DNA from: Hydrogenoanaerobacterium saccharovorans
GTDB taxonomy: Bacteria; Bacillota; Clostridia; Oscillospirales; Ruminococcaceae
Assembly (NCBI RefSeq): GCF_016901815.1
Contig: NZ_JACSNR010000007.1
Span: forward strand, 62,001 to 126,000
Direction: 5' to 3'
DNA length: 64,000 nucleotides
The notes beneath the pieces were generated by a model, which was not told the origin of the DNA, made no database searches, and was given only the letters and a program-made list of their open reading frames with translations. Both the position numbers and the translations under genes were made by a program. Positions 8,338 through 55,257 of this stretch are shown here, piece after piece. How positions within the stretch are numbered: position 1 is the first letter of the stretch; each line of letters begins with the position of its first letter.

Positions 8338-8393
8338 GTGATAGGCGCGGGGCAATGCTGCTGCCGCGTAAATCCACACAAAAGGAGCTTGCT

Positions 8394-9692
8394 ATGAATA
8401 TTTTCAGAAATACCGGCTGTTCATCCGGGTTCTGCCCCGACAGCTGCGGTAACTCCTGTCAGGATTGCGGCAATTCCTGCCAGAACTGCGGCAATTCCTG
8501 CTGCGGTATGCCCGGCTGCCCCTGCACACCCGTCTGTCCGGATACCATCACCATCGGCACTACCATCACCGGCGCCCCGGGCACCGAAGCACAGGTCACC
8601 AACAGCGGCACGCCGCAGAATCCTGTCCTCAACTTTGTGATTCCCCAGGGCGCTACCGGCCCTCAGGGTCCCCAGGGTCCGCAGGGGCCTCAGGGGCCGC
8701 AGGGCCTCCAGGGCGTTCAGGGCGAAATGGGTATGACCGGCCCCATGGGTCCCACCGGCCCGACCGGTCCTCAGGGCCCCACTGGTCCCACTGGCTCTAC
8801 CGGCCCCATCGGTCCTGCTGGTGCCGGCCTGGAAACTGTGACTTCCTTCACCCCCGGCTTCCCCTATCCTCGTGGTTCCATGCTGTTCTACAATGGCTCG
8901 CTGTATCAGGCCGCTGTGGATAACCCCACCGGCACACCGGGTTCTTCCCCGGATTACAACCTCATCAGCGTTGCCGGTCCCACCGGGTCTGCCGGACCGA
9001 CCGGCCCTACCGGTCCCACTGGGCCGCAGGGGCAGCAGGGTCTCCAGGGCCCGACCGGTCTGCAGGGTGCTGAGGGTCCCACTGGCCCCACTGGTCCTAC
9101 CGGCCCTCAGGGTCAGCAGGGCGTAGCAGGTCCCACCGGCCCCACCGGTGCGGAAGGTCCTACCGGGCCCACTGGTCCCCAGGGACAGCAGGGCCTCCAG
9201 GGTCCTGCCGGTTCTGCCGGCGCCCAGGGTGCGGAAGGTCCTACCGGCCCCACTGGCCCCACCGGTCCACAGGGCGCCGCACCGACTGTGAATGCCCTCT
9301 ATGCCACCAACACCAGCTCGCAGACCGCTGCCAGCACCGGAGATGACATCACCTTCGACACCAACCAGGTAGAAGAGGGCAGTGACATCACCCACTCCGC
9401 CAGCTCGGCAGACTTCTCGCTGACCCAGAATGGTCTCTACCGCATCACCTATTCGGCGGTGGTAACCAATACCTCCTCCACCGGCAATGTCGGCCTGGAA
9501 CTGCAGGAGGACGGCACCTCCATCGACGGCAGTGTCAAGGAGGCCAAGGTCAGCAATACCTCCGACCCTGCCACTGTCGGCGCAACCGTTCTGGTGAATG
9601 TCACCAGTGCGCCGGTCACCATCACCCTCAACTCCACCGAGGACAATACCACTGTGACCAACGCAGCTATGACGATCCAGAAACTCAACTGA
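8394..9692 (+). CDS. Collagen-like surface protein with Cys-rich N-terminus
   Basis: A 432-residue protein. Residues 1 to about 45 are Cys-rich with a repeated CGNSC unit. A short segment ([19 protein letters not shown]) leads into 20 Gly-X-Y triplets. A non-collagenous insert of about 50 residues (LETVTSF...YNLISVA) follows, then 34 more triplets rich in GPT and GPQ, and finally a C-terminal domain of about 130 residues resembling the beta-rich trimeric heads of BclA-like proteins. No signal peptide or LPXTG anchor is present, which fits delivery from the mother cell to a spore surface. The threonines of GPT triplets are glycosylated in Bacillus BclA; the next gene is a glycosyltransferase. 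The ATG at 8394 follows AAAAGGAG. Confidence 0.85.
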
Positions 9693-9709: not shown

Positions 9710-9740
9710 GACGGACAGTCCGTGTGGCTGTCCGTCTTTT
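9710..9740 (+). terminator. Terminator after the collagen-like gene
   Basis: Nine-bp stem GACGGACAG / CTGTCCGTC followed by TTTT, 18 bp after the stop. Only about 30 bp remain to the next start, so some read-through into the glycosyltransferase is likely. Confidence 0.75.
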
Positions 9741-9772
9741 CGCACTGTATCAAAATACTGGGAGGCAAGCGG

Positions 9773-10912
9773 ATGAAAATCGTAGTTTATGCAATCTGTA
9801 AAAATGAAAGCGGGTTTGTGGACCGCTGGATGGACTCCATGCAGGAGGCAGACCGGGTCATTGTGCTGGATACCGGCTCCACCGATGATACGGTACAGAA
9901 GCTCCGCAGCCGGGGCGCCAGAGTCTATGAGGAGCAGTTCTCCCCCTGGCGCTTTGATACGGCCCGGAACCGCTCCCTGGAGCTGGTGGACGACGATGCC
10001 GATCTCTGCGTCTGCACCGACCTGGACGAGTACTTCCTCCCCGGATGGCGGGCGGAACTGGAGCGGGTATGGTCGCCGGGAGTGACCCAGGTGCGCTACC
10101 CCTATGTGTGGAGCTTCCGGGCAGACGGCAGTGACGGCGTGACCTTCTGGTACGAGAAGATCCACGCCCGGCACGGGTACAAATGGACGCACCCGGTGCA
10201 TGAGGTGCTGAGCTGGATTGGAGAAGGTACGCCGGGCAAAACGGTGGACGCACCGGGCATGCGTCTGGAGCACCACCCTGACCCTGCCAAATCCCGGGGA
10301 CAGTACCTGCCGCTGCTGGAGCTCTCGGTGCGGGAGGACCCGGACGACGACCGCAACACCCACTATCTGGGACGGGAATACTTCTACTACCGGCGCTGGG
10401 ACGACTGCATCCGCACCCTGAAAAAGCATCTTGCCATGCCCAATGCCCTCTGGGCAGATGAGCGGGCGGCCTCCATGCGGTACATTGCCTCCTCTTACAG
10501 CCACAAGGGACAGCCGGATGAGGCAGTCCGGTGGTATCTCAGGGCCGCAGCCGAAGCGCCCCATCTCCGGGAGCCGCTCACCGATCTGGCCCTGGAGCTC
10601 TACTATCAGAAGGACTGGCATGGCGTGCTCTTTGCCGCCGGGAGGGCCCTGCGCATCACAAAGCGCCCCCGTACTTATATCTGTGAAGCTGATGCCTGGG
10701 GCAGTCTGCCCTGGGATCTGATGGCTGTGGCATACTACAACATCGGACGCAATACCCTGGCGCTGGAATATGCCCTGCAGGCCCTGGAGCTGGACCCCGG
10801 AAACGAGCGCCTCCAGAACAATGTGCGCCTGCTCCGGGAGCTGGAGGATGCCGCGGCACTTCCGCCGGTATTTAGAGACAGTAACCAACTGCCCGGAGAA
10901 AATGCGGAGTAA
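9773..10912 (+). CDS. GT2-type glycosyltransferase with TPR tail
   Basis: A 379-residue protein. Residues 1 to about 210 form a family-2 glycosyltransferase: the start MKIVVYAICKNE, the nucleotide-sugar loop DTGSTDDT and the DxD-type TDLDEYF motif. The remainder contains helical repeats consistent with TPR units (ALWADERAASMRYIASSY, GQPDEAVRWYLRAA, RNTLALEYALQALELDP). This architecture occurs in enzymes that glycosylate peptides or surface proteins. The only likely protein acceptor nearby is the Thr-rich collagen-like protein just upstream, so a role in decorating it is inferred. The start at 9773 has GGGAGG nearby; the in-frame extension upstream runs through the terminator hairpin. Confidence 0.82.
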   Translation: MKIVVYAICKNESGFVDRWMDSMQEADRVIVLDTGSTDDTVQKLRSRGARVYEEQFSPWRFDTARNRSLELVDDDADLCVCTDLDEYFLPGWRAELERVWSPGVTQVRYPYVWSFRADGSDGVTFWYEKIHARHGYKWTHPVHEVLSWIGEGTPGKTVDAPGMRLEHHPDPAKSRGQYLPLLELSVREDPDDDRNTHYLGREYFYYRRWDDCIRTLKKHLAMPNALWADERAASMRYIASSYSHKGQPDEAVRWYLRAAAEAPHLREPLTDLALELYYQKDWHGVLFAAGRALRITKRPRTYICEADAWGSLPWDLMAVAYYNIGRNTLALEYALQALELDPGNERLQNNVRLLRELEDAAALPPVFRDSNQLPGENAE

Positions 10913-11761: not shown

Positions 11762-11793
11762 AAAAAAGACCGCTCAGGTGAGCGGTCTTTTTT
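11762..11793. terminator. Bidirectional terminator
   Basis: Near-perfect inverted repeat AAAAAAGACCGCTCA / TGAGCGGTCTTTTTT between convergent genes; it serves the YoaK-type gene and the DHHW-like gene, whose stop lies inside it. Confidence 0.92.
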
Positions 11794-12937
11794 AATTCCC
11801 TGCGGCTTCTCCGGCCTGGGGCAGATAGCTGGAAAGCACCGTATGCATATCCTCATGCATGAAGGTATCCACCGAAACGCCGATGAGCACCTGGTTGTAG
11901 TCCTCCAGTTTTACGGCTGCCAGATCCTCCGGTGTGGCATGCTCCACATCGATGATGGCAATATCCGAATAGTGCACCAGAAGGAACGGGATATAGCTCA
12001 GCACTGTCTCATCCGCGAAGATCACCAGGCTGTTATCGCTGCTGGTGGAGCTCTTGAGGGTAATCACCGGCGAAAGTCCGCCGAGGATCAGCTCATTCCC
12101 GCCCTTGTAGCCGGAAAGCTGGGCTGTGAACTCCGGGAACAATGTGTAATAGGTCCGGGCTTCCCCATGGTCGTAATGGGTCACCTGGTATTCCCGGCGG
12201 TACTTGGAAAAGCGGTACAGCAGCACCCGGTCAGGCTGAATCCGGTCCACCGGAAGCTGTTCATACAGCTCGCCGTAGAAGTAGTCATCCGAATAGTCGA
12301 TGTCGAACTGATCCAGGGTACGCAGCGGGGAAATACCCAGCCGCATGCCCAGCTGTTCATACACCAGATAGCCGCCCTTTGCCGTGAGGTTATCGGTGGT
12401 GCGGTAGTAGATGTACTCCTCCATGCCCGAGAGGAGCTTCAGATAGGTATCCACCACCGAAACCGAACCGGACATCTCCGTATAGACCGAATCGATATAA
12501 CTGCGCTGATTGAACAGATTGATATATTCGGGCAATTCCTGCTGCTTGATGGCACAGGCGGTCGGAAGCAGCATCACATAGGTGGGATGCTCCTGGAAAG
12601 AGGCAAGGTCGATGATCGACTGCTTGTTCTTGGTGGCGATCTCGTCATCCGGCGGCTGGACATTCTTCATCAGCATGGTGTCCCCCACCAGGATTCCGTC
12701 AATCTCAGCAGAACCGCCGAACAGCCGTGCGTCCACCGCCAGCTTGTGCAGCATAGAATGCCCCGGCATATTCTCACAGGCGGCCTCCTCCAGCTGGGCG
12801 GAGACTTCGCCGTCCACCAGGGCCCGCAGGGTCAGTGTCAGACCATCGGCGCCGCCCGCTGAAAAACGGACGCACAGCACCGCAAACGCCGAGAAAATCA
12901 CAGTGAGAAAGAAAATAGCGGAGATTCGTTTCGCCAT
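11792..12937 (-). CDS. DHHW-family-like protein lacking catalytic residues
   Basis: A 381-residue protein with one N-terminal membrane segment (residues 5-25) and an exported domain that aligns with the DHHW protein at 52367-53827. The shared frame is EYIYYRTTDNLTAKGGYLVY here against EYIYFRTDHHWTVTGAYYAY there. The DHHW tetrad is therefore replaced by T181-D182-N183-L184. The predicted nucleophile region KESFGNAF is replaced by FADETVLS, putting Glu310 at the Ser366 position, while flanking PFLxxHY and YGELY segments are kept. The frame is intact and full length. It follows the MBOAT-like gene by 33 bp. Probably a non-catalytic partner protein; function unknown. See findings. Confidence 0.75.
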   Translation of the reverse strand: MAKRISAIFFLTVIFSAFAVLCVRFSAGGADGLTLTLRALVDGEVSAQLEEAACENMPGHSMLHKLAVDARLFGGSAEIDGILVGDTMLMKNVQPPDDEIATKNKQSIIDLASFQEHPTYVMLLPTACAIKQQELPEYINLFNQRSYIDSVYTEMSGSVSVVDTYLKLLSGMEEYIYYRTTDNLTAKGGYLVYEQLGMRLGISPLRTLDQFDIDYSDDYFYGELYEQLPVDRIQPDRVLLYRFSKYRREYQVTHYDHGEARTYYTLFPEFTAQLSGYKGGNELILGGLSPVITLKSSTSSDNSLVIFADETVLSYIPFLLVHYSDIAIIDVEHATPEDLAAVKLEDYNQVLIGVSVDTFMHEDMHTVLSSYLPQAGEAAGN

Positions 12938-12970
12938 GGGACACCTCCTGAATACAGAATCGAATCGGCC

Positions 12971-14314
12971 TTACACCAGCAGAGCTGTGGTAAGGATCAG
13001 CAGCGAGCCGTTGAATACCGCGATCACCCATTCAGACGCCACCGGGAATTTCTTGGAGAGGAACCCGGTCAGGCGGTCTGCCAGACTGGTGAAGAACAGC
13101 AGGCTCAGCAGGATCACAAGATAGTTGGAAGCCAGATAATAGCTTGTTTCGTCGGAGATCATACGCTGGGCCGAGAAGCCGAGCAGCACGGAAATGAGAT
13201 CTCCGGTATTGGAAAACTGCGGCAGAACCAGCGGAGCCAGACTGAACAGGAACAGCCCGAAGGTCACGGCGGACTGCAGCAGGCCGGGGATATACCGGAA
13301 CAGCCAGAAATACAGATACCGCTCCGCCAGAACCATCAGGAACAGGAATCCAGCCCAGAGCAGAACCTGCGGCACGGGATCAAACCAGATCCCCACCACT
13401 ACAACTCCCGCCAGAACCGCAATGAGTTCCCGGGTGTCGGCGTGGCGGTACCGCCGGAGCTGGCGAATCCGTTCCGCCGAGCCGCTGACAATCTCCACCA
13501 CCAGATCATAGAGGGGCATATTGATGCGGGATACGCATTCCACCACACTCTTGGCCTGATAGGGATAGTAGATCACCCGGGGAACTTCCAGCGAGAAGAT
13601 GGAGCAGAGCCCCCGTGCCATATCGCCATAGGCGGAGATGGTGAAGAAGATCGCCATCGCAGCGGCAAAGACCAGCATCCAGGCGGAGAAAAAGGTGTAC
13701 TCCTCCACCGGAAGCGATGCCAGCTCCTGATAGAGGATCAAGGCACCATCTGCAATGATAACCTTTTTCGCCAGCCCGATGACAAACTGCACAGCGCCCC
13801 GGCTGATGAGGGTTGCCGAGGAGCGCAGCTGAGAAAACTGCGGGACAAACCGGTCATACCGCACCACCGGCCCCAGATAGCTCTTGGCAAAGAAGGTGGT
13901 AAACAGCGCATAATCCCAGAAGGAGCGGAAGTACCCCGCCTTGCCCCGGCTGTGATCCCAGAGGTAGCCGATCAGCGTGGCAGTATAGACAAACCCGCCC
14001 AGTGAGGCTCCGGGGCTCCAGTGGGAATAGGCCATCACGAGGATCTGGACCACCACCGCCTTGGCAGCGAAGGCCAGATACCCCACCGGCTTATCCGGGC
14101 AGCGGGCAAGATAGAGTTCCAGAAAGCTCAGCAGCACGAAATCCAGCAGGCAGTTCGCCGCCAAAATCAGTGCCGCCGGAACACTTGCCAGCAGATAATA
14201 GCACCAGGAGAGCAGCGTCAGGCAGGCCACCCGGCGATGGGCCGGTGTCAGCCGGAATATAATGATCGCCAGCGGCAGATACAGATAGATAAAGCTGATG
14301 CTGCTGAATGTCAT
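12971..14314 (-). CDS. MBOAT-like membrane protein lacking both active-site histidines
   Basis: A 447-residue polytopic membrane protein with about 11 hydrophobic segments and the MBOAT (AlgI/DltB-type) layout. It aligns with the intact MBOAT at 53842-55257: SYLGPVVRYDRFVPQF matches the LVAGPIVRYSDV region, AYGDMARGL matches GYSDMAIGL, and YYPYQAKSVVEC matches NYPYIAKTATEF. The catalytic motifs are gone: RRWHIS becomes SRINMP (Asn265 for His280) and GLWHGA becomes GIWFDP (Phe311 for His317), and the YIPLGGNR loop is lost. The frame is open with a good AAAGGAG site. It follows rnmV by 37 bp in the comEC-holA-rnmV direction. Not predicted to transfer acyl groups. Confidence 0.75.
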   Translation of the reverse strand: MTFSSISFIYLYLPLAIIIFRLTPAHRRVACLTLLSWCYYLLASVPAALILAANCLLDFVLLSFLELYLARCPDKPVGYLAFAAKAVVVQILVMAYSHWSPGASLGGFVYTATLIGYLWDHSRGKAGYFRSFWDYALFTTFFAKSYLGPVVRYDRFVPQFSQLRSSATLISRGAVQFVIGLAKKVIIADGALILYQELASLPVEEYTFFSAWMLVFAAAMAIFFTISAYGDMARGLCSIFSLEVPRVIYYPYQAKSVVECVSRINMPLYDLVVEIVSGSAERIRQLRRYRHADTRELIAVLAGVVVVGIWFDPVPQVLLWAGFLFLMVLAERYLYFWLFRYIPGLLQSAVTFGLFLFSLAPLVLPQFSNTGDLISVLLGFSAQRMISDETSYYLASNYLVILLSLLFFTSLADRLTGFLSKKFPVASEWVIAVFNGSLLILTTALLV

Positions 14315-14351: not shown

Positions 14352-14969
14352 TCAGCGGGCCGGATCGGCTGCGGACTCGTCCTCCGCACGGATCTCCGCC
14401 GCAAGTTTCAGAAACTCCTCATAGCTGAGAATACATCCCAACACTCCCACCAGGGCGTTGGTGCCCAGGTGTTCCGGGAGCCCCAGTTTCTTCTTGAGCC
14501 GTTCCCGGAGCCGGGAGCTGTTTGCTCCGCCCGAAAATCCCTGCTCCATCAGGTCGGTCTTGGTGATGCGGCGGGTCTGTTCCTCTGCCGGCTCCGCAAA
14601 TACACCGGCCTGTTCCAGCGCTTGGCGGATCACCTCGGCGGGCACCCCTTCCACCCCCAGCTTTCCCTCGGCAGAGGGCTTGTCCTTGCGCTTTTCCTTA
14701 CCGAAAATATCCGGGATATAGGCGTTGATGATCTGCTCCTTCGGAATGCTGCCGCCCAGGTACCGTCTGATCCGGAATCCGGCTGTATCGGAATCGGTGA
14801 GGATCACCAAGCCCTGCCGCCGGGCGATTTCCCGGAGCATTGCCAGCTTCTCCTTATCCTTGAAGATCCGGAACCCGCCGGTTTCTATAATCACTGCATC
14901 CAGTATGGACGCCAGCTTTGCCTTGTCATACCGTCCTTCCACCACGACGGCCTGCCTGAGATGGATCAT
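14352..14969 (-). CDS. rnmV: Ribonuclease M5
   Basis: Toprim-domain nuclease that matures 5S rRNA in Gram-positive bacteria. The toprim glutamate is in VVVEGRYDKAKL, the DxD in LTDSDTAGFRIRRYL, and the C-terminal rRNA-binding part includes GFSGGANSSRLRERLKKKLGLP. At 205 residues the length is normal. The ATG overlaps the holA stop by 4 bp (ATGA). In Bacillus it neighbours ksgA; here it is joined to holA and comEC instead. Confidence 0.92.
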   Translation of the reverse strand: MIHLRQAVVVEGRYDKAKLASILDAVIIETGGFRIFKDKEKLAMLREIARRQGLVILTDSDTAGFRIRRYLGGSIPKEQIINAYIPDIFGKEKRKDKPSAEGKLGVEGVPAEVIRQALEQAGVFAEPAEEQTRRITKTDLMEQGFSGGANSSRLRERLKKKLGLPEHLGTNALVGVLGCILSYEEFLKLAAEIRAEDESAADPAR

Positions 14970-16012
14970 GCTCTCTCCTCCCCGAGCAGCAGGAACAGCT
15001 CGGTAATGGTTTTCTGCAGAACGATTTTCTCATCGTTTCCGGAGCTCTTCAGCTCAAAGTCTGCCCGGGCCAGTACCTCCAGCGCCCGGCGCAGGAACTG
15101 CTGGGGCAGCTTCCGGCAATCCCGGAAGGCGTTGCGCATGGCAAACTCCCTGCCCTTGTAGCCGAAATCCGCTGCGGCTTTGGAGGTTTCCACCCCGGCG
15201 GAAATAGCAGCTCTGGCCCGGCTGAGATCCACAAAGGACATACTCAGCACATAGAGGATATTCACTGCCGGCTCCCGCAGATAGAGCAGCGCCGACAGAA
15301 TCCCCTGGGCTTTGGCATAATCCCGTGCCAGGATCGCTTTGGACAGACTGAACACCTCAGCCTCCACAGTGGCGCTCACCAGGCGGTCTACGGCCTCCCG
15401 GGATACCTCTCCGGACTGTGTAAAGGCAATGAGCTTGTCAGTTTCATTCTGTACTGCGATCAGCTCACCGGTGGTCTTGGATACCAGCCAATCGGCGTTT
15501 TCACGGGAAATGGTACAGCCTGCCGCAGCGCAGCGCTTCATCACGAAGGCTGCCAGATCCGCCGCACTGCGCTCCCCCAGCTCTGCCGCAATGCCCAGAC
15601 GGTCCACTGCCTCCAGCAGCTTGCGGCAGCGGCTGGACTTCTTGGGCAGGAACTCATTCTGCTTGATGGCAATGATGAATACCGTCGGCTCCACAGCATC
15701 ATTCAGAATCTGGAGCAGCTTGTCCAGATCCCCGGCAGACAGCTTATCGATGTCCGGATCGTCCAGCATCACCGCCCGGCGCTCTGCCATCATCGGCAGG
15801 GTCAGGATGCTGTCATACAGATGGTCGAAGTCAATCTTGGCTCCGTCCACCCGCTCATAGTTGAAGGTCTTATCCCCTTTGACCGCACGGTCCACAATCA
15901 GGGACGCATACCGCTCCACCAGATAACGGTCACTTCCGTAGAGCAGGAAAACCCCCGATGGCAGACCAGTGCGCAGGGCACGATTCAGTTCCTTTTCATT
16001 CATCTGCGCCAC
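14966..16012 (-). CDS. holA: DNA polymerase III delta subunit
   Basis: Clamp-loader delta subunit that opens the sliding clamp. The N-terminal LPSGVFLLYGSDRYLVERY, the degenerate AAA core (NYERVDGAKID, PMMAERRAVMLDD, VFIIAIKQ) and the C-terminal collar helices (LLYLREPAVNILYVLSMSFVDL) follow the HolA/YqeN pattern. The 348-residue length is typical. Translation starts at GTG 16012, with AGGAGGG 7 bases upstream; this ribosome site overlaps the end of comEC. Gene order comEC-holA is common in Firmicutes. Confidence 0.93.
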   Translation of the reverse strand: MAQMNEKELNRALRTGLPSGVFLLYGSDRYLVERYASLIVDRAVKGDKTFNYERVDGAKIDFDHLYDSILTLPMMAERRAVMLDDPDIDKLSAGDLDKLLQILNDAVEPTVFIIAIKQNEFLPKKSSRCRKLLEAVDRLGIAAELGERSAADLAAFVMKRCAAAGCTISRENADWLVSKTTGELIAVQNETDKLIAFTQSGEVSREAVDRLVSATVEAEVFSLSKAILARDYAKAQGILSALLYLREPAVNILYVLSMSFVDLSRARAAISAGVETSKAAADFGYKGREFAMRNAFRDCRKLPQQFLRRALEVLARADFELKSSGNDEKIVLQKTITELFLLLGEERA

Positions 16013-16024
16013 ACGCAGTCCCTC

Positions 16025-18067
16025 CTATGTCCAGAACAGCAGTTCTGTGCGCTCGGCTGTGTTTTCCCGGACCCGGATGCCTCCCGCCCGGTACACCTGT
16101 GCCTTCTGCTCCGGCAAAAGCAGAACATCCGGCTCATACTGTTTTATTATATCATAAACATCCTGAAACTTTAAGAGCAAAATATCGCCGCAGGAAACTT
16201 CCACGCCCATACCCCGCTGATAGCGAAGCTGAAGGTCCCCCGGCAGCACCGCTTCGATCTGTTCCCGGCTGGTGATTGGCGCGTCACAGACCGCTTCGAG
16301 ATAGCTGGTCACTGCGCCGCTGTCCGGAGCCGCAATCTGCAGCGGAGGATATTCCCGCAGCAATTCCAGCGTTCCCTCGGCCTGCAGCGGCGCATAGCTC
16401 TCCACAATGAGCAGATCGATCTGCTCTGCCCCATTCCGGCGGAGCTCCTCCAGCATTTCACTGTCCCGGTCTGCCAGCAGCACAACCGCATGGCCATCCT
16501 GCAGCAGCATAAGATCCTCGCCCCGGGAGATCACCTGCACGGAGCCGGCGAGTTCCCACTGCTCCCAGGCGATCAGCAGGCAGCAGATGGAGGCGCCTGC
16601 CAGCATAGCCGGACGGAAGAACCGCCGGGCTGCCGGCAAAGCCGTTATTACCACCAGCAGCAGGGTCATAAGCAGGACAACCGTCCTGGAAACCGGAGTA
16701 TCCAGCGGGAAAATGAACGGCAGCCCGGAGAACCAACCGGCAATCCGCAGGAACAAGCTGCCCAGCAGTCTGGCGGGAAGCACCAGCAGACCTGCGCCCT
16801 CCGGGAACAGCCAGAGTGCCGGAATCAGCAGGTACCCCAACAGGAGCATGGGCGTCATCATCGGCAGGATCAGCATGCCTGCCACAATGCCATTGAGAAC
16901 CAGGAGGGAATCCATATCCGCCAGGATCGGGAGAGTCAGGCACTGAGCTGCAATGGCACAGGCAAGCAGATGAACCGGACTGCTGCCGACTCGTCCGGTG
17001 AGCTGTGCCGGGAGGTGGCTCTTGAGAAATTCGGCGAAGGGACGCTCATAGAGCAGGATTCCCAGGGTCGCCAGCACCGAGAGCAGGAACCCATAGGAAA
17101 GCACCGCAAACGGGTCCATCAGAATCAGCAGGATCACAGCGAGTCCGAGGCTGTTAAGGCTATCAGCTTTACGCCCGATTACACGGCCAAACAGCAGAAC
17201 TGAGTACATCACTGCCGCCCGGAGCACTGCATGGTTGCCGCCGGAGAGCAGCACCGGACACCACAGGCACAGCAGCGCCAGACTGTTGCGCAGCCGGCGG
17301 CGCAGCGGGAGCACCCTTGTAAGCGCCAGGATCAGATGGCAGAATACAGCGATATGCAGACCGGAAATCGCCAGCACATGATAGACACCGGCGTCCTTCA
17401 TCATCTGCACCGAGTCATCAAATCCCGGGCGCAGTCCGGTGGTGATGGCGCTGAACAGATTGCCGGTTTCAGCTCCCAGGGCATGGATCAGCCGGTCACT
17501 TGTTTCCGCCCGCAGTCTGGCTGTCACAGCACGGACCGGGTAAAGCGATTTGTCCAGCAGTTCGATCTCTTCGCCGGTGGCACAGAACAGGAATCGGCTC
17601 TCCCCGGCAGAGGAGCGGTACTCCGATGTATAGGGATCATCGTAGGTCACACGGGCTGTGCAGCGGAAACTGTCCCCTGCTTCCAGTTCATCGGACAGTG
17701 CGTTCCAGAGCGTGAATTTAATATGCTCCGCACTCCCGGCTTCGGTGGATACAGAGCCGTATGCTTCATGCAGATTTCCGCTTTTCTTCTCTGTGACAAC
17801 GCCGGTCACCTCTGCGGTCTTTCCATCCAGCGGTTTGAGTTCTGATTCCAGGGAAAGGCTGACTGACAGCATCAGAAGGATCGAAGCGGCAGCACTCAGG
17901 GCGCAGACCGCAGCCTTTCTCCAGCGGGGATTTGCTGCCCGGCCCGCACAGATCATCGCTGCCGCAAGCAGCATCGGAAGCAGCAGATAGCAGTATATAT
18001 TTCCATACAAAACGACCGCTGATCCGAGCAGAACAGCAATTCCTACATCGAACAGCGGTCGTTTCAT
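16025..18067 (-). CDS. comEC: ComEC/Rec2 DNA-uptake channel with degenerate C-terminal domain
   Basis: Membrane channel for single-stranded DNA entry in natural transformation. The N-terminal DUF4131/OB part covers residues 1-200. The competence domain with about 8 to 10 helices includes the signature HVLAISGLHIAVF and SGGNHAVLRAAVMY. The C-terminal beta-lactamase-like domain is recognisable in outline but lacks its metal ligands: where ComEC proteins have a SHxHxDH motif after the D-x-L-I strand, this one reads IDLLIVESYAPLQAEG. At 680 residues it is somewhat short for full-length ComEC. No comEA is in the window. The frame is intact with no stop. Confidence 0.85.
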   Translation of the reverse strand: MKRPLFDVGIAVLLGSAVVLYGNIYCYLLLPMLLAAAMICAGRAANPRWRKAAVCALSAAASILLMLSVSLSLESELKPLDGKTAEVTGVVTEKKSGNLHEAYGSVSTEAGSAEHIKFTLWNALSDELEAGDSFRCTARVTYDDPYTSEYRSSAGESRFLFCATGEEIELLDKSLYPVRAVTARLRAETSDRLIHALGAETGNLFSAITTGLRPGFDDSVQMMKDAGVYHVLAISGLHIAVFCHLILALTRVLPLRRRLRNSLALLCLWCPVLLSGGNHAVLRAAVMYSVLLFGRVIGRKADSLNSLGLAVILLILMDPFAVLSYGFLLSVLATLGILLYERPFAEFLKSHLPAQLTGRVGSSPVHLLACAIAAQCLTLPILADMDSLLVLNGIVAGMLILPMMTPMLLLGYLLIPALWLFPEGAGLLVLPARLLGSLFLRIAGWFSGLPFIFPLDTPVSRTVVLLMTLLLVVITALPAARRFFRPAMLAGASICCLLIAWEQWELAGSVQVISRGEDLMLLQDGHAVVLLADRDSEMLEELRRNGAEQIDLLIVESYAPLQAEGTLELLREYPPLQIAAPDSGAVTSYLEAVCDAPITSREQIEAVLPGDLQLRYQRGMGVEVSCGDILLLKFQDVYDIIKQYEPDVLLLPEQKAQVYRAGGIRVRENTAERTELLFWT

Positions 18068-51347: not shown

Positions 51348-52355
51348 TTACCGGATGATCATTGTAACTGCATCATACCGGCATTTATCAATCTGGGTGA
51401 AGAAGTCGGTTTCCGATGTCAGCAGTTCCTTGCCGGACTTGCGCAGGTTATCGGTGACGAACCGGGCGGTGCGCAGACCTCTTTCCTGCAGTGTGGCATA
51501 GGCGTCCTCATAGGCCTTGTTCCGGTCCGCATCCACATACGCCAGAGCGTAAGCCGAAGCCTCCCTCATAGCTGCCTGCAGCTCCTCACCTGCTGACTGG
51601 TAGAAGTCCTCGGACACATACAGCCAGTCCACTTCAATGCGGTGTGCTGTATTGATGAGGTAGGCATGCTCCATATCCTCATCCAGAAGCTGCGCCAGCT
51701 GGGCACTGTTGACCTCCATTGCTGTGACTGTTTCGTCCTGCCAGGTTTCGGTCAGGGTAGCACTGGCTGCGGTTGTGTCACCGAACAGGCTCTCAAAAGC
51801 CGCCGCCGTGTAATAATCAGAGGGCTCTGCCAGTGTGAACTCCTGCATATCCTTCACCGCACGGATGGGGCTTTCCTTGGTCATCACCATCATGGTGCCG
51901 CCATAGAACACACCCAGCTGGCGTGCCTTGAGAGTCTCGGCATAGTCCAGCTCGGTCAGCTGGATAAAGGTCGGCGAATTGAGGGTCATGGTCATGTGCT
52001 CGTAGTCCCGGAAATAAAACGGCGAAGCATAGATGGCAAAATCGCTGTCATAAGGGATCAGGCCAGCTGAATCCACATAGATCAGGTCCGCTTCCCCTGC
52101 CAGCAGGCTGGCTTCCGGGTCTTCCTCATAGAACAGACTGATGTCCAGCGGAACTTCGCTGTACTCCACCAGCTTATCGACGAACAGGCGCATTCCGTCC
52201 CGTTCAGTCTCATCTGCGGTATTGGATACAGAAATCCGGACTTCCAGGCTCTCATTCTGCCGGAACGGGGAATCCAGTTCCCCGGACGAACAGCCGGTCG
52301 CCAGTAATGCCAGCGCCAGCGTCATTCCAAGCAGACGCCGGTGTGTATTTCCCAT
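51348..52355 (-). CDS. TRAP-type (DctP-like) solute-binding lipoprotein
   Basis: A 335-residue lipoprotein. The signal peptide ends in LLATGC (Cys22). The mature domain has the DctP/TRAP binding-protein layout: RISVSNTADETERDGMRLFVDKLVEYS, ADLIYVDSAGLIPY, FYFRDYEHM, LGVFYGGTMMVMTKESPIRAVKDMQ, AMEVNSAQL and the long C-terminal helix. The arginine that normally binds substrate carboxylates is not obvious. No TRAP permease genes are nearby. It follows the DHHW gene by 11 bp and so belongs to the acyltransferase operon. ATG 52355 follows GGGGAG. Confidence 0.78.
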   Translation of the reverse strand: MGNTHRRLLGMTLALALLATGCSSGELDSPFRQNESLEVRISVSNTADETERDGMRLFVDKLVEYSEVPLDISLFYEEDPEASLLAGEADLIYVDSAGLIPYDSDFAIYASPFYFRDYEHMTMTLNSPTFIQLTELDYAETLKARQLGVFYGGTMMVMTKESPIRAVKDMQEFTLAEPSDYYTAAAFESLFGDTTAASATLTETWQDETVTAMEVNSAQLAQLLDEDMEHAYLINTAHRIEVDWLYVSEDFYQSAGEELQAAMREASAYALAYVDADRNKAYEDAYATLQERGLRTARFVTDNLRKSGKELLTSETDFFTQIDKCRYDAVTMIIR

Positions 52356-52366
52356 TGGCTCTCCCC

Positions 52367-53827
52367 TCACTCCTCATCTTCGTCATTCTGATCCTTTTTC
52401 CGGCGGTCCTCATCTTCCTCGTCCTCTGAGGAATCCTTGTCCCGATCCGCATCCTCTTCGCCGTCCTCCGGCTCCTGACTGCTCTCGGTCTCCTCTTCCG
52501 ATTCCTCAGTTTCCTCCTGGACCGGCGGAGCCCACTGCTGGGTCATCAATCCCTGAATCCACTGGATCTGTACCGCCGTATTGGCAGCAAAGACATTGTT
52601 GATGAAGATCAGATCCGTTACGCCGTTCTGCTTGATGAAGTCCAGCAGATTCAGCTCAAAATAGCGCTGATCCACAATATATACGGTTTCATAGTGTGCC
52701 ACCAGGAACGGCGAGAAGGCATTGCCGAAGGATTCCTTCACTACCACTGCCTTGCGTCCGTTCTTGTTTTCGGTCTGGATCTCGGTAAGGGGCTGGTCGC
52801 CATGCAGGAAGACTGAGTACATATTCACGCCCGAAGCATAGTCCGCCATGATGGTGCTGGCATAGGGTGTGAACGGCTCGCCCCGCTTGTACATATATGC
52901 CTGGTGAGGCGTGGAAATGGTGGGGTAATCCACATAATCCGGATTCTCCCGCAGGGTGGAATCCTGGGTCTGGGAGTAGAGCGTTCCATAGAACGGCTCC
53001 TTCCGGTTCCACTCAAAGCTGTCATAGGGTGTGGGCGTGAAGCCCGCTTCCTTACAGAACGCCACATACGCATAGTAAGCGCCGGTTACCGTCCAGTGAT
53101 GGTCGGTGCGGAAGTAGATATATTCATCCGTATGCTGGGCAATCTCGCCATAGGCATCCACTGTCTTGACCGCATCGCTCATCTGAGAGTAGATATAGTC
53201 GATATTCGGCTTTTCCGGAGCGGAAATATCCTGATACTTTTCCGGAAGATAGAACTCGATGGAGGTGGGCACCACAATGTCATATACCTGGACATCCGGC
53301 AGTGCCGCCGCATAGGAATTGATGACATCGGCATACCACTTGCCCATGGACTGGCTGCCGCCGAACATGGACATCGCCATCCCCTTATAGATGAATACCG
53401 AGCCATTCTGTTCGCCCACAGCAGTTTCCTCTGCCTTGCTGGACGAGGAGTTCTCGGTTTCTATGCCGCTGCCCGGCTCTGTGGGGACTTCCGGTTCCGA
53501 AGTGGATGGGGCTGTTTCATGGATCTTGGCGTCATCCAGACGCAGCCCACGCATTTCCTCCAGGGTGCTGCCCAGGGAAATCAGCGCATCCCGGAACGGG
53601 AAAGTATCGCTGTAAAAGGCATCGATCCCCGAAGCCAGCGATCTATCCCAGTATCCCTTGAGGGTCAGCTCGGGCATTTTCGCCAGGTCACGCTTTTCCT
53701 GCTCTGAATAGGTGGGCTTCTCCATGGCAATGGACAGTCCGCCCACAGCAAACAGCGCTGTACAGAATGCCGCAATGTTGAGCATGGAAGCAGCGGTAGG
53801 CCGCTTGTTGTTGTGTTCGTTTGCCAT
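52367..53827 (-). CDS. DHHW-family protein (AlgJ/AlgX-like), catalytically intact
   Basis: A 486-residue membrane-anchored extracytoplasmic protein. One N-terminal helix (residues 15-34), then YSEQEKRDLAKMPELTLKGYWDRSLASGIDAFYSDTFPFRD, typical of the DHHW family. The catalytic RTDHHWTVTGAYYAY places Asp242, His243, His244 and Trp245; the likely nucleophile is Ser366 in KESFGNAF. There is a Ser/Glu/Pro-rich insert at about 104-140 and a strongly acidic tail from about 430 (Glu, Asp, Ser) that is unusual. DHHW proteins work with MBOAT enzymes to acylate cell-surface polymers. It follows the MBOAT gene by 14 bp. Confidence 0.9.
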   Translation of the reverse strand: MANEHNNKRPTAASMLNIAAFCTALFAVGGLSIAMEKPTYSEQEKRDLAKMPELTLKGYWDRSLASGIDAFYSDTFPFRDALISLGSTLEEMRGLRLDDAKIHETAPSTSEPEVPTEPGSGIETENSSSSKAEETAVGEQNGSVFIYKGMAMSMFGGSQSMGKWYADVINSYAAALPDVQVYDIVVPTSIEFYLPEKYQDISAPEKPNIDYIYSQMSDAVKTVDAYGEIAQHTDEYIYFRTDHHWTVTGAYYAYVAFCKEAGFTPTPYDSFEWNRKEPFYGTLYSQTQDSTLRENPDYVDYPTISTPHQAYMYKRGEPFTPYASTIMADYASGVNMYSVFLHGDQPLTEIQTENKNGRKAVVVKESFGNAFSPFLVAHYETVYIVDQRYFELNLLDFIKQNGVTDLIFINNVFAANTAVQIQWIQGLMTQQWAPPVQEETEESEEETESSQEPEDGEEDADRDKDSSEDEEDEDRRKKDQNDEDEE

Positions 53828-53841
53828 TTCAGTCCCTCCTC

Positions 53842-55257
53842 TCAGAACCGGTAATACAGGAACGGATTATAGCTCTGCCCGCTGAGCATGGCAGTACAGA
53901 TCAGCAGAATCCCCAGATTCATCACCGGCACCAGAATGCCCAGGATGATCTGCCGGGGGCGGCTCACAGCTGCTGCCGCGGTGATCTGCTGCGATGCGAT
54001 CCGGGCCAGCGGCAGACAGAATACCACCGCCAGAATCAGCCAGAACAGGTTGCCCTCCAGGGCCAGCAGGGTCTGGGAGTTGGTGAGCGGCTGACCCGAC
54101 AAACCGAACATGATCCCAAGGTACTGTGCGGCCCGGGAGAGATCGGTGAAGTAGAAGATCACCCAGCTGATCAGTACCGCGAACAGCAGGTAGAAATGGC
54201 TGATGAAGCCCGGCAGCTTTTCCAGCAGATTGCGCAGGCCCAGGCGCTCCAGGGCGATCAGCACGCCAAAGAACAGGCCCCAGAGGATAAAGTTCCAGCT
54301 GGCGCCATGCCACAGGCCGGTGGCAAACCATACCACAAACAGGTTGCGCCAGGCATGGCTGCGGTTGCCGCCCAGCGGAATATACAGATAATCCCGCAGG
54401 AAGCTGCTCAGGGAAATGTGCCAGCGCCGCCAGAATTCTGTGGCAGTTTTGGCGATATAGGGATAGTTGAAGTTCTCTACGAAGTGGAAGCCGAACATCA
54501 GGCCCAGGCCGATCGCCATATCCGAATATCCGGAGAAGTCATAGTAGATCTGCAGCATGAACAGCACCGCGCCGAACCAGCTTCCCAGCACAGTCACTTT
54601 GGTAAGATCGCCGTCCATATACTGCACCAACAGCGAACCGGCAACATTTGCCACCGCAACCTTCTTGAGCAGGCCGATGCAAAACCGGGTAATGCCATGG
54701 CTGATGTCGTTGGCATTGGCGGTGCGGTGACCGATCTCCCAGGCCACATCGGAATAGCGGACGATGGGACCGGCTACCAGCTGGAAGTACATGGACACAT
54801 ACATGATAAACCGCAGGAAGGAAGGCTGGGCCTTGACATCGCCGCGATAGACATCCACGATATAGGAGATCATCTGGAAGGTGTAGAAGCTGATGCCGAT
54901 GGGCAGCGAGAACTGCGGGACCGGCAAGGAAAGCGGCAAAACCGCATTGATATTCTCGATGAGGAAGCCGCTGTACTTGAAGATTCCAAGCAGCGAAAGG
55001 CTGATGGTCACAGCGAAAATCAGTGCGGCCTTTCCCCTGCGGGTTCCGGCGAACCGTTCCACCAGCAGACTGCAGAACCACACCATGAATCCCGAAGCGA
55101 GCAGCAGCAGAACCCAGACCGGTTCACCCCAGGCATAGAACAGGAACGACATCGCCACCAATACAAAATTCCGTACCGCATAGCTGCGGGTGGCATAGTA
55201 GAGGATCAGGTTGACCGGCAGGAATATATAGAGGAAAAACAGATTGGCAAATACCAT
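53842..55257 (-). CDS. MBOAT O-acyltransferase (AlgI/DltB-like), catalytically intact
   Basis: A 471-residue polytopic membrane enzyme moving acyl groups across the membrane to exported glycopolymers. Family features are FKYSGFLIENIN, PIGISFYTFQMISYIVDVYRG, LVAGPIVRYSDV, YYDFSGYSDMAIGLG and the two active-site regions EFWRRWHISLSSFLRDYLYIPLGG (His280) and ATGLWHGASWNFILWG (His317). With the DHHW protein and lipoprotein it forms a three-gene operon. No polymer-synthesis gene is adjacent, so the polymer is unknown. ACGGAGCG precedes the ATG. Confidence 0.93.
   Translation of the reverse strand: MVFANLFFLYIFLPVNLILYYATRSYAVRNFVLVAMSFLFYAWGEPVWVLLLLASGFMVWFCSLLVERFAGTRRGKAALIFAVTISLSLLGIFKYSGFLIENINAVLPLSLPVPQFSLPIGISFYTFQMISYIVDVYRGDVKAQPSFLRFIMYVSMYFQLVAGPIVRYSDVAWEIGHRTANANDISHGITRFCIGLLKKVAVANVAGSLLVQYMDGDLTKVTVLGSWFGAVLFMLQIYYDFSGYSDMAIGLGLMFGFHFVENFNYPYIAKTATEFWRRWHISLSSFLRDYLYIPLGGNRSHAWRNLFVVWFATGLWHGASWNFILWGLFFGVLIALERLGLRNLLEKLPGFISHFYLLFAVLISWVIFYFTDLSRAAQYLGIMFGLSGQPLTNSQTLLALEGNLFWLILAVVFCLPLARIASQQITAAAAVSRPRQIILGILVPVMNLGILLICTAMLSGQSYNPFLYYRF

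Follow-up and report, generated by a model that had tools for sequence, protein, structure and literature searches.

Loss of catalytic residues in both partners of an MBOAT-SGNH gene pair downstream of comEC-holA-RNase M5, and a possible non-catalytic role for the retained proteins

At one orthologous locus in a family of Clostridia, a complete acyl-relay complex (MBOAT, shuttle tyrosine, and SGNH partner) may have lost its catalysis more than once, each time in the two partners together, and yet have been kept as a non-catalytic complex; we judge the chances of this to be about even. The polymers known to be acylated by MBOAT-SGNH pairs include alginate, cellulose, peptidoglycan, teichoic acids, and S-layer polysaccharides, and to our knowledge the pairs are understood solely as enzymes. 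No description of such a dead MBOAT-SGNH pair was found in the open-access papers searched, and a search there for MBOAT/SGNH pseudoenzymes gave nothing pertinent. The pair described here lies in a 64,000-nucleotide stretch of Hydrogenoanaerobacterium saccharovorans DNA (the window), and its relatives were followed through 397 genomes of the same GTDB family, many of them fragmented.

Residues and fold of the window pair

Both genes lie on the minus strand. One (12971..14314) encodes a 447-aa MBOAT-fold membrane protein and the other (11792..12937) its 381-aa SGNH-fold, membrane-anchored partner of the DHHW type; the two open reading frames are full length with AG-rich ribosome sites, in agreement with the initial annotation, which had described open, full-length frames with good ribosome sites. 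Their conserved upstream neighbors on the same strand encode an RNase M5-like Toprim/DUF4093 protein (14352..14969), HolA, the DNA polymerase III delta subunit (14966..16012), and a comEC-type competence protein (16025..18067). An intact pair elsewhere in the window, also on the minus strand, served as comparator: an MBOAT paralogue (53842..55257) with RRWH, GLWH, and a C-terminal NPFLYYRF, and a DHHW paralogue (52367..53827) with TDHHW, KES, and DQRY. A DctP-family (TRAP-type) solute-binding protein is encoded at 51348-52370 (minus strand); the first 4 bases of its gene are shared with the end of the intact DHHW gene, and the protein may belong, as a third component, to the acylation operon of the intact pair (52367-55257). 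On the plus strand, convergent with the dead-pair region, genes for a BclA-like collagen-repeat protein (8355-9692) and a glycosyltransferase-TPR protein (9722-10912) possibly belong to a glycosylated surface or spore filament system.

Aligned with the intact window pair, the MBOAT-like protein has SRI-N265-MP in place of RRW-H280-IS, which puts Asn265 (codon 13520..13522) at the first MBOAT His position, and GIW-F311-DP in place of GLW-H317-GA, which puts Phe311 (13382..13384) at the position of the universal MBOAT His. In the partner, T181-D182-N183-L184 (12386..12397) stands where the intact protein has D242-H-H-W, and Glu310 (12008..12010) occupies the position of the nucleophile, Ser366 (all codons on the minus strand, computed from the open reading frames). 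The initial annotation had these replacements right; its claim that both proteins have lost all catalytic residues is confirmed and can be widened, since the loss of the oxyanion Arg and of the acyl-shuttle Tyr had been overlooked. The oxyanion hole of PatB1 is formed by the Arg of a DxRY motif (PMC9487903); here DxRY has become DVEH, with Glu332 at the Arg position. PatA acetylates the Tyr of its own C-terminal hexapeptide, FXYXXF, and this Tyr, the proposed carrier of the acyl group on its way to the SGNH serine, is essential, as is the universal His (PMC12148441); the MBOAT-like protein ends at its last membrane helix and has no FXYXXF tail. With the MBOAT His residues, the shuttle Tyr, the SGNH Asp, His, and Ser, and the oxyanion Arg gone, every known relay station is missing, and acyl transfer by a relay of the PatA/DltB type is, judged from these residues, impossible for the window pair.

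The MBOAT-like protein is 23% identical to the intact window MBOAT (BLASTP, E 3e-23 over 446 aa), and the DHHW-like protein matches its intact counterpart (BLASTP, E 1e-18) and PF14286 (E 3.5e-15); chance similarity to the intact pair can be dismissed. The window MBOAT-like protein itself has no Pfam match; PF03062 is matched by 33 of 43 dead MBOAT relatives, and all 41 of the dead DHHW proteins compared have a Pfam-style match. AF2 models, built from input alignments that combined the window sequence with those of relatives, are confident (pLDDT 89.6 for the MBOAT-like protein and 91.7 for its partner). The first predicted fold matches DltB (6bug, E 2e-8) and other MBOATs, and the second matches PatB1/4nzk (E 1e-14 to 1e-19), with 4nzk and 5v8e among the Foldseek matches.

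Among known systems, PatA1/PatB1, the secondary cell wall polysaccharide O-acetyltransferase of the Bacillus cereus group (PMC9487903), and 4nzk of Eubacterium siraeum share the folds and the gene pairing, and the N-terminal membrane anchor that PatB1 carries on its SGNH domain is also present in the DHHW-like protein. PatB1 S337, D200, H202, and R359, however, are all replaced in that protein, and the MBOAT-like protein lacks the PatA1-type His and the shuttle Tyr. PatA/PatB, the peptidoglycan O-acetyltransferase, and DltB/DltX/DltD likewise combine an MBOAT fold with a membrane-anchored SGNH partner; the PatA shuttle motif FXYXXF (PMC12148441) is present in active orthologues at the locus, but no relay residue of these systems is left in the window pair. 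CcsH/CcsI, from the cellulose synthase locus of clostridia (PMC7710045), is also a clostridial MBOAT-DHHW gene pair, though one that sits with a polymer synthase and whose proposed substrate is cellulose, whereas the window pair has comEC-holA-RNase M5 beside it and no polymer synthase.

Survey of the locus across the family

Relatives found in the family-wide search are mostly 27-35% identical, and the first 30 dead-clade loci fetched were all dead in both genes. Because active MBOATs score almost as high on profile A1, it was rejected for separating dead from active MBOATs, and a profile of the DHHW-like protein (A2) was used instead; 66 genomes score at least 361 bits on it, with the intact proteins of the calibration set at 339 or below. 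The order holA-RNase M5-MBOAT-DHHW was seen in 20 of the 21 dead loci first mapped, nearly all of which are preceded by comEC and most of which have genes for AlaS, an HIT protein, and a phosphoribosyltransferase further upstream. An active pair occupies the same place in several genera, for example G120, G097, and G084, and at least nine further active loci adjoin RNase M5. The pair is an orthologous locus (comEC-holA-RNase M5-MBOAT-DHHW) across the family.

We classified 103 loci, by calls that rest on few alignment columns and are least certain where divergence is greatest (G037 and G052): 34 are active in both genes, 66 (including G361, whose MBOAT frame is split) are dead in both, none is mixed, and the remaining three hold a dead MBOAT without a readable partner (G193, G037, and G036, the last at a contig edge). 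The initial claim that both partners lost catalysis at once therefore holds, as a coupling, for every locus at which both can be read. Among complete proteins, FXYXXF is present in 34 of 34 active MBOATs and in none of 64 dead ones. No dead DHHW partner keeps both Ser and His; what is left varies by group, from none of the residues to D, S, D+S, D+H, or the Arg alone (G002).

A few loci deserve individual comment. The MBOAT of one pair (G132, L199, G132:C17:187963-190507) has Asn at the first and His at the second position and a tail, NIPFIMFQI, in which the Tyr is changed to Met, next to a dead partner; this pair looks intermediate. Alignment error or remote misassignment was considered as a source of the dead calls and was ruled out by the multi-genome alignments and by such intermediates (KRWNIS/AFWHGL and the same tail in G132). 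Next to the dead MBOAT of G193 (L114 10533-12936) there is no DHHW gene, and a GH113 glycoside hydrolase gene follows instead; no DHHW partner was detected beside the dead MBOAT of G037. At G361 (L194 3919-5315) the MBOAT gene is split into two overlapping pieces, by a frameshift or an assembly error, while the dead DHHW frame is open. The pair is absent after RNase M5 in several genera, and in G001, which belongs to the window's genus and is 88% complete, neither the dead pair nor its RNase M5 neighbor was found, reflecting an assembly gap or loss of the region. Frameshifted or missing orthologues, which the initial annotation had named as signs against its reading, thus do occur, but only as isolated cases: the split frame, the two MBOATs without a partner, and some pairless genera. 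Outside the family, the best-scoring matches read in a 394-genome sample of the order are all active, with rare dead pairs possible among lower-scoring ones.

History of the loss

On an MBOAT tree calculated with the motif columns removed, all dead genes form one group, on long branches. This grouping is what a single dead pair of ancient origin would produce if it had spread by transfer or by differential loss of paralogues; it would leave the same retained non-catalytic role with another history, and the attachment of most small dead groups at the base of the dead group fits it as well. However, because the dead branches are long, their grouping is also expected from long-branch attraction, and different catalytic residues are left in different dead groups. 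The neighboring genes tell against a single dead clade: a tree of holA and M5 becomes worse by 231.6 log-likelihood units when the dead loci are constrained to one group (p 1.5e-6), and an enlarged neighbor tree requires 10 state changes, of which well-supported branches force at least six; with loss taken as irreversible, it requires 11 losses. In the concatenated pair tree, the dead pair of G032 is nested among active pairs (support 100), and the best matches of both its proteins, MBOAT and DHHW, lie in that active clade, among the active pairs of its neighbors; G029 groups with two active pairs, with no noted support, and the remaining small dead groups that were tested branch off at the base. 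We therefore consider a single ancient dead pair rather unlikely, although it keeps a real share of the probability. Since the neighbors reject a single dead clade and G032 sits inside an active one, loss has recurred: at least two losses are firmly indicated by the trees, and many more are likely, unless transfer let dead pairs displace active ones.

Constraint and function of the retained pair

In 17 close comparisons between dead loci, dN/dS is 0.08-0.29 for the MBOAT and 0.08-0.44 for the DHHW partner, the corresponding ranges in active pairs are 0.05-0.13 and 0.05-0.18, and holA and M5 lie at 0.05-0.29; the values are approximate because many dS exceed 1, and pairs with saturated dS were given no ratio. 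At about 0.08-0.44, far from 1, the dead pairs bear out the earlier claim that they are retained under selection, without decay of the frames. Loss of the catalytic residues, a fold that is apparently kept, and purifying selection on the genes together mark the window pair as a putative pseudoenzyme pair.

Constraint is nevertheless weaker than in active loci, since at equal neighbor divergence dead MBOATs change far more rapidly than their active counterparts. The MBOAT core helices and the TDHHW, KDS, and DxRY blocks are the most relaxed parts, and MBOAT helix 1, the C-terminal helices, and several segments of the DHHW fold the least relaxed, a comparison limited by the fact that the least-relaxed MBOAT segments are the most variable ones in active proteins. 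In the published PatAB model, the partner contacts PatA at helices 1 and 17 (PMC12148441). The N-terminal anchor is kept in 59 of 64 dead partners and the C-terminal helix in 62 of 64. Few conserved residues are specific to the dead proteins, as those of a new binding site would be, and co-evolution of the dead partners beyond that of their neighbors (partial correlation 0.15, p 0.05) was too weak for use.

Two rival explanations each seem improbable to us. As a decoy or negative regulator, the dead pair would compete with or modulate the intact pairs of the same cell, through polymer, acyl-CoA, or partner, much as has been proposed for HHATL with respect to HHAT (PMC5831804). The window genome indeed has two active MBOATs, and another active MBOAT occurs in 43 of 47 dead-locus genomes versus 16 of 27 active-locus genomes (p 0.0019); the excess is lost, however, after pairing by phylogeny, and is compatible with redundancy that permits loss. 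In four genomes that are 94-100% complete (G005, G132, G151, and G220) no other MBOAT or DHHW protein was found, so the dead pair cannot solely regulate an intact one, and regulation of the intact pair, which the initial annotation had offered among its examples, fails as a general role. HHATL, a mammalian pseudo-MBOAT, does resemble the present case in that its catalytic His is replaced (by Leu) while the protein is retained with a proposed regulatory function; it differs in being a single vertebrate protein with an active paralogue and no SGNH partner, while loss here is paired and sometimes unaccompanied by an active paralogue (PMC5831804).

The second, slow decay, supposes that acetylation became useless, catalysis was lost, and the proteins linger before the genes disappear, to which we likewise give little credence. 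The faster divergence, the split frame of G361, the partnerless MBOATs of G193 and G037, and the genera without a pair after M5 are what such decay would leave; the dN/dS values well below 1, the full-length open frames in more than 20 genera, and the conservation of residues and anchors argue against it. Still less probable is a new chemistry, with cavity and groove rebuilt from other residues for a different reaction: Asn stands at the first His position in 84% of dead MBOATs, some eukaryotic MBOATs use Asn or Asp there (PMC5831804), and Asp309 of the DHHW-like protein is kept in 98%, but the second His position is free to vary (F, Y, L, I, A) and the catalytic segments, which are the most relaxed, contain no new invariant polar residue.

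Because both genes are kept with open frames at one fixed locus in dozens of related genera, the pair probably does a non-catalytic job, and we put the proposal that the window pair is a retained non-catalytic envelope complex, with a biochemical role read from its architecture, at roughly an even chance. The initial annotation's suggestion of selection for a non-catalytic complex thus gains from the residue losses, the purifying selection, and the coupling of the partners, and loses the regulator or decoy as its general explanation. We propose that the pair descended from an MBOAT-SGNH polymer O-acetyltransferase downstream of comEC-holA-RNase M5, whose complex would have had a second, catalysis-independent job, most likely that of an envelope scaffold. 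The MBOAT-like protein would serve as a membrane platform that holds the DHHW-like protein through its N-terminal anchor, and the outward-facing groove of the SGNH fold may be a binding site for a cell-wall polysaccharide or for another protein of the envelope, neither of which would be acetylated. This job would have been kept once acetylation became dispensable, for example where other active pairs are present. A link to sporulation was also considered and rejected, because the presence of SpoIVA does not discriminate: it is found in 78 of 80 genomes with a dead, an active, or no pair, and both genomes that lack it (G097 and G292, one genus) have an active pair.

Pfam-style annotation will call the dead proteins acyltransferases, which is very probably wrong. 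With intact orthologues in some genomes and dead ones in others, the locus amounts to a natural experiment, in which the dead members isolate the non-catalytic role and repeated loss supplies the replicates. If our reading is true, bacterial MBOAT-SGNH complexes would have a function that needs no catalysis and that has so far gone unrecognized.
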